Shown here piece by piece: positions 58,610 to 61,457 of a stretch of DNA of 64,000 bases (positions are counted from its first letter, which is position 1; every line of letters starts with the position of its first letter). Source of the stretch: Prochlorococcus sp. AG-673-L20 (lineage in GTDB: Bacteria > Cyanobacteriota > Cyanobacteriia > PCC-6307 > Cyanobiaceae); contig QCTN01000003.1 of NCBI GenBank assembly GCA_003211135.1, positions 1 to 64,000 of the forward strand, given 5' to 3'. The notes under the pieces are model-generated. The model ran no database searches, was not told the DNA's origin, and saw only the letters and a list, made by a program, of their open reading frames with translations. A program made the translations under genes and the position numbers.

Positions 58610-58918
58610 ATGAAATTTATTACCAATTCTAGGCAATTTCATAAATCATTGGCACCTTGGGTTTTCCTCCCATTATTCATTTCGGCTTTAACAGGTACAT
58701 TTTATAGGATCTCGAAAGATTTATTAGGCTACTCAAGAGATGAAGTTCACTGGTTAATGTCTCTACACGAAGGAGAGTGGCTTGGAGATAATGGAGAATT
58801 AATATACGTAATCTTAAATTCTTTAGGACTTATTTGGATGCTAATAACAGGGTTTCAAATGTTTTCAAAAAAAATTTCATTTCCTAAAAAGGTTACTAAA
58901 GGCGAGTCGAAAGGTTAA
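58610..58918 (+). CDS. Small PepSY-associated-type membrane protein
   Basis: 102 residues with two membrane helices (about 16-34 and 67-85). The pattern SRQFHKSLAPWVFLPLFISALTGTFYRI..LL and SLHEGEWLGDNGELIYVILNSLGLIWMLITG resembles PepSY-associated/Fe-reductase-like membrane pieces (small cyanobacterial PepSY-TM proteins with conserved His). His12 and His53 could ligate heme, which is inference. It is 32 nt upstream of rplS on the same strand. Confidence 0.7.
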   Translation: MKFITNSRQFHKSLAPWVFLPLFISALTGTFYRISKDLLGYSRDEVHWLMSLHEGEWLGDNGELIYVILNSLGLIWMLITGFQMFSKKISFPKKVTKGESKG

Positions 58919-58950
58919 AATAATATCCTTGTAGAGTTATTGAGCGTAAA

Positions 58951-59421
58951 ATGGCAAAAGAGAAACAAGAAACTGAGTCAGAAATCATTAATAAATCTGA
59001 CAGGGCCAATGAATTAACTGCTGAGAATCAAGGTAAAGAAATGATTTCCGAAGCAAAAACTAATTCAAGTTCATCAAATTTGATAACTGAATTTGAAAGA
59101 GAACAATTAAAAAAACAATTACCCGAAATATATGTTGGAGATACGGTAAAAGTTGGAGTAAAAATTACAGAAGGTAACAAAGAAAGGGTTCAACCTTACG
59201 AAGGAGTTGTGATTGCGAAGAGACATGGCGGGCTAAATCAGACCATTACAGTTAGAAGGATTTTTCAAGGCATTGGAGTTGAAAGAGTATTTATGCTACA
59301 TAGTCCTCAAGTGGCGTCTCTAAAAGTAGAACGTAGAGGTAAAGTAAGAAGAGCTAAGCTATTCTATCTAAGGGATAGGGTAGGAAAAGCTACTCGCGTA
59401 AAACAACGCTTTGATCGATAA
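58951..59421 (+). CDS. rplS: Ribosomal protein L19
   Basis: 156 residues. The C-terminal 115 residues are normal L19 ([64 protein letters not shown]), a large-subunit protein at the subunit interface. About 40 N-terminal residues are an acidic, low-complexity extension (many Glu, Asn, Ser), longer than in E. coli but seen in other cyanobacteria. A hairpin follows the stop, then tRNA-Trp. Confidence 0.96.
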
Positions 59422-59443
59422 GGTTGTAAAGTAATTTCAACCT
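59421..59443 (+). terminator. Hairpin after rplS
   Basis: AGGTTG (59421-59426) and CAACCT (59438-59443) form a 6-bp stem, extendable by AAA/TTT with a one-base bulge. It overlaps the last base of the stop. No T-run follows, so it may terminate weakly or protect the 3' end. Confidence 0.35.
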
Positions 59444-59461
59444 AATGGTCATAAAGGCGCT

Positions 59462-59467
59462 TATAAT
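59462..59467 (+). promoter_or_regulatory. -10 box before tRNA-Trp
   Basis: Perfect TATAAT nine bases upstream of the tRNA-Trp 5' end; transcription would start about 2-3 nt before the tRNA. No good -35. It suggests a promoter of its own for tRNA-Trp and probably for the 62-codon gene that follows. Confidence 0.55.
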
Positions 59468-59476
59468 CCTTTTATT

Positions 59477-59549
59477 GCGTCGTTAGTTCAGTTGGTAGAA
59501 CGCAGGTCTCCAAAACCTGATGTCGGGGGTTCAAGTCCTCCACGGCGCG
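59477..59549 (+). tRNA. tRNA-Trp (CCA)
   Basis: 73 nt that fold as a full cloverleaf. Acceptor GCGTCGT pairs with ACGGCGC (one T-G pair), with discriminator G at 59549. The anticodon stem is CAGGT/ACCTG around the loop CTCCAAA, anticodon CCA at 59510-59512. The T-loop GTTCAAGTC is present. The 3' CCA is not encoded and must be added. Confidence 0.96.
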
Positions 59550-59587
59550 TTTGGATCAACATTCTGTAAATTTTTTTTTTCATTTAG

Positions 59588-59776
59588 ATGGAGTTAGATC
59601 TTCAACCTGGGGACGTGGTTAAAGTCCTCGAATCAGCTGCTCTGGGATGGGTTCGTGCAAGAGTCATCAGAGTAAAATCTGGAGGCAGAGTTGTTGTTCA
59701 AAGCGATCAAGGCAGAGAATTTACAGCTCGAGGCAATCAAGTTCGATTAATTGAACCAGCAGGCTATAGGCCTTAA
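59588..59776 (+). CDS. 62-aa KOW-like protein between two tRNA genes, unusually GC-rich
   Basis: 62 residues, clear ATG 38 nt after tRNA-Trp. The sequence (ELDLQPGDVVKVLES, GWVRARVIRVKSGGRVVVQSD, GREFTARGNQVRLIEP) reads as a small basic beta-barrel of SH3/KOW or Hfq-like shape, the sort that binds RNA or ribosomes. GC is about 46 % by hand count (87 of 189 nt), far above the neighbours. I recall a reported 'hyperconserved' 62-aa protein in Prochlorococcus and marine Synechococcus encoded beside tRNA and ribosomal genes; this looks like it, but I have not checked. Function unknown; location suggests translation. Confidence 0.85.
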   Translation: MELDLQPGDVVKVLESAALGWVRARVIRVKSGGRVVVQSDQGREFTARGNQVRLIEPAGYRP

Positions 59777-59792
59777 AGAAAATTAAAAAGTT

Positions 59793-59809
59793 TCCTTCTT
59801 AAAAAGAAG
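59793..59809 (+). terminator. Small hairpin after the 62-codon gene
   Basis: CTTCTT and AAGAAG around a short A-rich loop about 20 nt past the stop, followed by an AT-rich stretch with T's. Weak, but placed where a terminator would be before tRNA-Asp. Confidence 0.25.
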
Positions 59810-59929
59810 CTAAATTATTTCTTTAAATCCTCAAATTTATGAATTTTTTTTATTACAACAACATTAATCAAGTATTATGATCTGATAATTTTAAACTCAG
59901 TTATCTAATTAAATTAGAACAAAAATTCT

Positions 59930-60003
59930 GGGACCGTAGTTCAACTGGTTAGAGCACCGCCCTGTCACGGCGGAAGTTGCGGGTTCGAATCCCGTCGGTC
60001 CCG
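59930..60003 (+). tRNA. tRNA-Asp (GTC)
   Basis: 74 nt. Acceptor GGGACCG pairs perfectly with CGGTCCC, discriminator G at 60003. The anticodon stem CCGCC/GGCGG encloses CTGTCAC, anticodon GTC at 59964-59966. The T-arm GCGGGTTCGAATCCCGT is canonical. No encoded CCA. gltX begins 17 nt after its 3' end. Confidence 0.97.
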
Positions 60004-60020
60004 TTCTTTTCTAAAAGAAA

Positions 60021-61457
60021 TTGGAAAAACGTTTAAGGTTAGCACCAAGTCCAACTGGCTCATTACACATTGGTACAGCAAGAACAGCTTTATTTAATTG
60101 GTTATATGCTAGAAAAACAAATGGAAAATTTCTGATTCGAATTGAAGATACAGATACTGCACGATCTAAATCTGAATATACAACAAATATATTAAATGGA
60201 TTAAATTGGCTAGGACTTAATTGGGATGAAGAGCCTATTAAGCAAAGTAAACGAGTTTCTGTTCACAAAAACTATATCAAAAGACTTTTAGAAAGTGGAG
60301 CTGCATATAGATGTTTCACTTCAGAAAGTGAGATTCTTGACCTTAGAGAAAAACAAAAAGTAAGTGGTTTACCACCCAAACACGATAATAGACATAGAAA
60401 TCTAACGAGTAATGAAATTAAAGAATTTATATCTCAAGGAAAATCATCTGTAATAAGGTTTAAAATTGATGAGGAAACAGAAATTAAATGGGAAGATCAG
60501 ATTAGAGGCGAAATTAAGTGGCAAGGCAAGGATCTCGGTGGAGATTTAGTTTTATCAAGAAGAGCTTTAGGTTATGAGATAGGAGATCCTCTCTATAATA
60601 TTGCTGTTGTAGTAGATGATAATTTCATGAATATTACTCATGTTGTAAGAGGTGAAGATCATATCTCAAATACTGCAAAACAAATCTTGATTTATAGAGC
60701 TTTAGATTTTAAATTACCAATTTTTTCACATACCCCTCTTATTTTGAATAGCGAAGGTAAAAAGCTTTCTAAACGTGATTCTGTAACTTCCATCGATGAA
60801 TTTAAAGAGATGGGATACTTACCTGAGGCTTTAGCCAATTATATGGCATTTTTAGGATGGTCTATAAAATCCCCTGAGAGTGAAATTCTCTCCTTATCAG
60901 AGATATCTAAAGTTTTTAATTTATCAGATGTAAATAAAGCTGGTGCCAAATTTAATTGGGAAAAACTTAATTGGATTAATTCTCAATACATAAAGAAAAT
61001 GGAATTAACACAATTAAGTAGATTTATTAAGCAGTACTGGAATGAAATGGGTTGGAAATCTCCTTCTACCGAATGGGATTTGAAATTGACATCTTTAATT
61101 CAAGACTCAATGATTCTATTAAAGGATGCAATTGATCAATCAAAACCCTTTTTTATCTTGTCAAAAATGAAAAAAGAGGGGGAGGAATTCTTGAAAAATA
61201 AGAAAGAGGCAAAAGAATCGTTAAAGTACATCCTTTTTTATTTAAAAGAAGGAAATATAACTAAGGTTAGTAAGGATAATGCTCAAGAAATAATCAATAA
61301 AATTACTGTTAACCACTCCATCAAAAAGGGGATTTTAATGAAATCATTGAGAGTAGCTTTTTTTGGGTGTCTAATTGGACCAGATTTAATTAAAAGTTGG
61401 GAATTATTCTCTGAGAACAAAATTGATATCACTCTGATTGAAAGATGTTTTATTTAA
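60021..61457 (+). CDS. gltX: Glutamyl-tRNA synthetase
   Basis: 478 residues. A class I synthetase: HIGT motif in [19 protein letters not shown] (about 9-27) and KLSKRD near 245. It charges tRNA-Glu and, in this lineage, probably tRNA-Gln for later amidation; Glu-tRNA is also the substrate for ALA synthesis, which links it to hemL/hemC here. The start is a TTG seventeen nt after tRNA-Asp, preceded by a 7-bp inverted repeat. Convergent on the antiporter gene with no gap. Confidence 0.95.

Follow-up and report, generated by a model that had tools for sequence, protein, structure and literature searches.

Background and Identity of the Protein

The gene considered here, pshcp, is a 62-codon open reading frame (ORF) with an ATG start at positions 59588..59776 (+) of a 64,000-nucleotide stretch of DNA from Prochlorococcus sp. 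AG-673-L20 (contig QCTN01000003.1; this whole stretch is called the window below), and the closest described system is the Prochlorococcus/Synechococcus Hyper Conserved Protein (PSHCP). A structure of its Tudor domain was reportedly presented by Bauer in 2019, together with tRNA/RNA binding in vitro. Tudor domains of eukaryotes bind methylated lysine or arginine, as is also reflected in the PDB titles of several matches discussed below. Earlier work by Whidden et al. (2014), cited here and below from the accessible parts of the paper, described PSHCP as a protein of 62 amino acids with a pI of 11.3 and with the same gene neighbours, which is transcribed and present as protein in three strains at 8-26 fmol per μg total protein (PMC4215834). 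L2, PsaD, and a Ycf48-like protein were pulled down with it in three strains, and pshcp expression parallels that of translation genes under nitrogen and phosphorus limitation (PMC4215834). The introduction of the same paper mentions numerous synonymous substitutions and a GC content that follows the host, and its authors hypothesize that PSHCP is ribosome-associated, possibly with a part in photosystem assembly (PMC4215834); the interactions are repeated in the accessible part of a 2016 review. PSHCP is plentiful in the most common photosynthetic organisms of the ocean, and its sequence admits hardly any change.

The product of the window ORF is, judged by its sequence, this already described and structurally solved protein, and the gene is therefore a known one. 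Among solved structures, phmmer found 6nnb_A, recorded under the name 'Prochlorococcus/Synechococcus Hyper Conserved Protein', to be 100 % identical over residues 1-56 (E 2.5e-31), the remaining five matches having E values of 0.22 or worse. Residues 1-56, length, and neighbours agree with PSHCP as published and solved (PMC4215834; PDB 6nnb), whereas residue 60, in the tail beyond the 56 aligned residues, is Tyr instead of Phe. The sequence-only reading, made without database searches, had pointed to a reported hyperconserved 62-residue picocyanobacterial protein at such a place, and this proved correct. It had also called the function unsettled, which holds for the molecular role only, as expression, abundance, and candidate partners have been published (PMC4215834, accessible parts). 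That the ORF is a genuine gene follows from its 62-codon frame, which persists across loci with flanking GC contents of 30 to 71 % and is thus not a product of chance.

The AlphaFold model of PSHCP (pLDDT 85, pTM 0.70) predicts a five-stranded barrel of the Tudor fold with strands at residues 10-15, 20-29, 34-39, 44-48, and 52-56. Foldseek returned 6nnb ('Solution structure of the Tudor domain of PSHCP') as the best match (E 5.2e-7) and the sole one with E <0.001; next came SH3-like domains of myosins and other Tudor domains, with E values from 0.0026 upwards. In a second structure comparison, Z was 8.1-9.5 for the Tudor domains of PHF1, TDRD3, and SMN (50-59 residues at an rmsd of 1.2-3.3), 8.7 for 6nnb, and 8.4 both for Spt5 and for a MutS2 chain on a collided disome (8r55_z), where entries within 1 Z of each other are tied and a shared fold says nothing of function. 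PSHCP has the same barrel as the eukaryotic Tudor domains (PHF1, TDRD3, SMN; for Tudor-SN, Foldseek E 9.2e-3 and phmmer E 1.3) but differs from them in passing the cut-off of no Pfam model: SH3_1 reached 22.0 bits (cut-off 22.9), Myosin_N 16.5 (27), and Agenet 15.3 (27), all below the curated values. It likewise resembles the KOW domains of NusG and Spt5 and the MutS2 chain 8r55_z, the relevant stretch of which we take to be a KOW domain, all being similar small barrels on RNA polymerase or the ribosome. Unlike NusG/Spt5 KOW domains, however, it has no KOW or NusG model among the six Pfam families listed with E values of 10 or less, although weak matches may be lost to the HMMER filters, and hhalign gives weak support for NusG (see below). 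The small barrel of the earlier, KOW-like suggestion is retained, while its KOW label sits poorly with a solved structure titled Tudor and with the Pfam result.

Conservation of the Protein and Drift of Its Codons

Residues 1-59 together with F60 are identical in 138 of 139 loci, a count biased towards identity, as the set consists of top-ranking matches and includes some contigs more than once; the window locus alone has Y60, and its protein agrees with the 138 others in 61 of 62 residues. The C-terminal ends in this set are FRP (70 loci) and FRPQK (68). After weaker matches had been added on purpose, the gene was present in 254 loci; 223 of these were distinct and usable, and 202 of the 223 still shared residues 1-59 exactly. 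The main variant group, ten loci of one genus label (g39; L156-L158, L329-L335), starts at codon 3 and carries V10L and L19M; in eight of these ten, GAGG or AAGG precedes the new ATG by about 25 nt, a distance larger than that of an ordinary Shine-Dalgarno (SD) site.

For the codons, a FastTree phylogeny was built on rplS and gltX from the 190 loci, out of 208 distinct ones, that have both neighbours and the full gene, including only three g39 loci. Fitch counts on this tree gave 1743 synonymous codon changes in 60 codons but only 15 residue changes in residues 1-59, several of which occur in one draft genome each and might stem from errors in sequencing. Per residue, this amounts to 0.25 changes for PSHCP as compared to 2.66 for the rplS domain (255 changes in 96 residues) and 12.46 for a GltX piece (1296 in 104). 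Out of 59 codons, between 5 and 46 differ when the window gene is compared with the other loci, and over its full length pshcp has a codon entropy similar to the value at invariant positions of rplS (+0.06 bits on average). Such abundant synonymous change around frozen residues demonstrates selection at the protein level. A near-identical protein across strains had thus been anticipated correctly, but the accompanying expectation of few synonymous changes was wrong; synonymous drift and host-tracking GC are known results that are repeated here on more genomes.

The distribution is equally narrow. A class-level profile search of 388 genomes yielded 101 with matches of E 0.1 or better, 88 of them in the family of the window, which we take from record titles to be Cyanobiaceae; these matches cover 61 or all of the 62 positions, and 84 share the top score. 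In the 13 remaining genomes only short pieces matched (E 0.003-0.1), and the best candidate for a remote relative outside the family (E 0.0032) was rejected because it spans 21 positions and contains an internal stop. Subtraction leaves 300 genomes outside the family, none with a credible match, 267 unmatched ones being of unlisted family. Within the family, a search at E up to 10 matched 373 of 400 genomes and 249 of 250 good ones, or 363 and 246 after removal of those with matches of E ~0.2-0.6 only (ten, three of them in the good set). Names among the best 80 of the 363 are Prochlorococcus, Synechococcus, Cyanobium, Vulcanococcus, and Aphanothece. Four near-complete family genomes lack a real match: two have no rplS match, one contig ends 42 nt past tRNA-Trp and another 19 nt past rplS, and we read all four as probable assembly gaps. 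At one contig end (L172, G278:C51), a C-terminal rplS piece on the minus strand lies beside tRNA-Asp on the plus strand, which may reflect an assembly fault or a rearrangement. Searches of 50,697 phage records and 72,556 plasmid records gave no pshcp match, and none of 34 pattern matches in viral contigs was confirmed. In the genomes searched, PSHCP is confined to the Prochlorococcus/Synechococcus/Cyanobium clade of marine and freshwater-lake cyanobacteria.

Possible Function

We consider it reasonably probable (about 0.6) that PSHCP is a single-domain, basic Tudor-fold RNA binder working with the translation machinery of this cyanobacterial family, most likely in contact with the large subunit of the ribosome, with tRNA, or with both. 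A ribosome or tRNA role is the most likely one in light of the published pull-down, the reported RNA binding, the gene neighbourhood, and the constraint. The protein would dock near L2 and/or hold a tRNA, and most of the face of its 60-residue barrel would be in contact with RNA and proteins whose surfaces do not vary, which may be why nearly all of its residues are fixed. The pshcp mRNA would be released by processing at both flanking tRNAs.

Several observations weigh against this assignment. Photosystem proteins were also obtained in the pull-down, so that a role in photosystem assembly is possible, and transcripts joining pshcp and the whole of rpl19 make up at most 1.6 %, with 7-11 % extending to the rpl19 3' end (Table 1 of PMC4215834, accessible parts). 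Tudor folds also bind proteins and DNA, myosin SH3-like domains are among the Foldseek matches, and other cyanobacteria live without PSHCP according to the class-wide genome search. The first point leads to a rather unlikely alternative, in which PSHCP mainly acts as a photosystem-assembly adaptor whose barrel binds PsaD and Ycf48 and whose L2 contact serves just to bring it to where membrane proteins are made. The ribosome-to-photosystem link proposed by Whidden et al. is in line with such an adaptor, but the prey proteins were identified with one bait and by one to eight unique peptides each (PMC4215834, accessible parts). The immediate neighbours of pshcp, moreover, are translation genes, and photosystem assembly is common to cyanobacteria in which pshcp was not found.

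History of the Locus

Outside the family, the place of pshcp is commonly taken by other genes. We found rplS in 58 of 60 genomes of the class, 53 of them outside the family, and sampled 45 of these 53 loci, reading 1.5-2.7 kb of each. tRNA-Trp follows rplS in 41 of the 45, and in 29 secE-nusG fills the rplS-trnW slot within the span read. Two loci of one family (f11; L182 and L184) have the order rplS-trnW-trnD with neither secE-nusG nor PSHCP detected, the 204-nt gap between their tRNAs containing no PSHCP-like frame, and may represent an intermediate of the locus. A hairpin-plus-T stretch and a TTGACA box are seen by eye between these tRNAs, and gltX was undetected within 1.5 kb after rplS. 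In two loci of another family (f26; L300 and L301), tRNA-Trp lies 23 nt past the rplS domain end and secE-nusG was undetected in the 2.5 kb read; the rplS-trnW-secE-nusG cluster may hence have broken more than once in cyanobacteria. The likely order of events, as inferred from the gene orders, is an initial rplS-trnW-secE-nusG, loss of secE-nusG from the slot, and arrival of PSHCP between the tRNAs.

A further explanation would derive PSHCP from NusG, the C-terminal KOW domain of which would have stayed in place as this cluster broke and may keep a NusG-like contact with the ribosome or RNA. Besides the shared slot and the Spt5 chains among the fold matches (Z 8.4), an hhalign comparison of PSHCP with 20 NusG KOW sequences gave a probability of 12.9 % (E 0.0022), the best of 60 window proteins reaching 1.4 % in an uneven control with single sequences. 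The alignment, however, spans just 16 columns of the first strand, the Pfam families listed include no KOW or NusG model, the f11 loci suggest that the slot may have been empty first, and the nusG of the window genome is present elsewhere (contig C20). We therefore regard descent from NusG as highly improbable. The secE-nusG slot of many other cyanobacteria, together with DNA that drifts except near the gene start, sharpens the question of how ribosome or tRNA binding could be so intolerant of change. In the accessible parts of the PSHCP literature and in text searches aimed at the protein, we met neither a genome count of this size nor the secE-nusG slot nor the slow 5' codons; no search was aimed at the last two, which may be in print.

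Base Composition

As the sequence-only reading had pointed out, pshcp is a GC-rich gene between tRNA-Trp and tRNA-Asp: its GC content is 46.0 % against 31.4 % in the window and 0.331 in the surrounding 57-63 kb, and the 55 window ORFs of at least 150 amino acids have a mean of 0.322 (sd 0.035) and a maximum of 0.386. The GC contents at codon positions 1, 2, and 3 are 0.67, 0.44, and 0.27. Encoded with the codon usage of the window, the same protein would be expected to have 0.433 (sd 0.018) as compared to 0.468 observed without the stop codon; 4 % of codon draws reach this value and 16 % reach the observed GC at third positions (GC3). Across 124 distinct loci (from the 139 fetched by then; flank GC 0.30-0.71), pshcp GC3 and flank GC are closely correlated (r=0.94, slope 1.09), the slope for the GC of the whole gene being 0.49. 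The high GC is thus mostly a matter of amino-acid content, with a small excess left over, and the earlier attribution to protein constraint instead of transfer is borne out. Recent transfer from a GC-rich relative, for which the contrast with the window and the excess over codon-usage expectation might speak, is extremely unlikely, since GC3 is only 0.27 and tracks local GC and since phage and plasmid records gave no match and viral contigs no confirmed one.

Leader and Start of the Gene

Synonymous change is lowered over the first nine codons (59588..59614, +). On the 190-locus tree, the Glu codons changed 2 times at E2 as compared to 18, 21, and 34 at E15, E44, and E56; Leu codons 9 and 14 times at L3 and L5 (L14 35, L19 41, L54 52); Asp codons 8 and 11 times at D4 and D9 (D40 34); and Gln codons 7 times at Q6 (others 15-20). 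Low counts also occur further in (V13 17, G20 13, F45 12), and the reduction is a gradient without a sharp box. A codon-divergence score did not single out codons 2-5, and its small pools gave larger values at codons 14, 16, 31, and 39; the tree count is the better test of the 5' codons. Bacterial genes commonly show fewer synonymous changes close to their starts, and such a general start effect is the plain reading here, the odd part being GAG in an AT-rich genome. Among ATG-started ORFs of at least 120 amino acids (starts taken as the first ATG), Glu at codon 2 was GAA 12 times and GAG once in the window plus 200 kb of genome G015, and GAA once and GAG three times in 200 kb of the GC-richer G173; an SD-like site lies upstream of 10-14 % of these control ORFs.

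The leader (59551..59587, +), 37 nt between tRNA-Trp and the ATG, is T-rich, weakly folded, and without an SD-like site; the tRNA end could be placed in 170 of 208 loci, and by an approximate measure the leader of 165 of these is 31-38 nt long. Among the 223 loci, 201 combine GAG at codon 2 with the absence of an SD-like site and ten combine GAA with its presence, while the two converse combinations do not occur; eleven have truncated starts (three with an SD-like site in the tested span) and one has Asp at codon 2. Nine of the GAA loci come from two genus labels (g54, g74) and the tenth (L138) is a metagenome contig. As the Glu-2 codon changes twice on the tree and the coupling may reflect one or two events, it is only suggestive. 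Under another counting rule, the start motif occurs without an SD-like site in 197 of 207 loci, and seven of the remaining ten have such a site.

A search for conserved RNA structure in the leader and start found none in 14 sequences (five pairs, no compensatory change). Leaders fold less than their shuffles on average (mean z +0.91, 88 loci), and in 40 loci the actual start was compared with its 144 synonymous versions, about two thirds of which are more strongly folded, so that low structure may be a reason for the codon choice. Whether pairing with the anti-SD sequence causes the choice of codons at the gene start is not clear, since 6 % to 54 % of synonymous starts pair equally well for the six commonest start forms (with an assumed 16S tail). 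It is conceivable, although distinctly unlikely, that the nine first codons are also under nucleotide-level control: starts lacking an SD-like site would use a start-overlapping AUGGAGUUR that follows ~35 nt of unstructured leader and could serve as an operator to which PSHCP binds in controlling its own synthesis, and the SD clade or clades would have switched codon 2 to GAA.

Gene Neighbourhood

The order at the locus is rplS-trnW-pshcp-trnD-gltX, as in the published PSHCP neighbourhood. Upstream lie rplS, encoding ribosomal protein L19 (58951..59421, +), and tRNA-Trp (CCA; 59476..59550, +), and downstream tRNA-Asp (GTC; 59929..60004, +) and gltX for glutamyl-tRNA synthetase (60021..61457, +), so that the translation cluster noted from the sequence is upheld by ORF and tRNA coordinates. 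Over positions 58900-60100, a scan gave three promoter-like sites (2.5 expected) and no terminators. The TTG start listed for gltX lies 16 nt past the end of tRNA-Asp.
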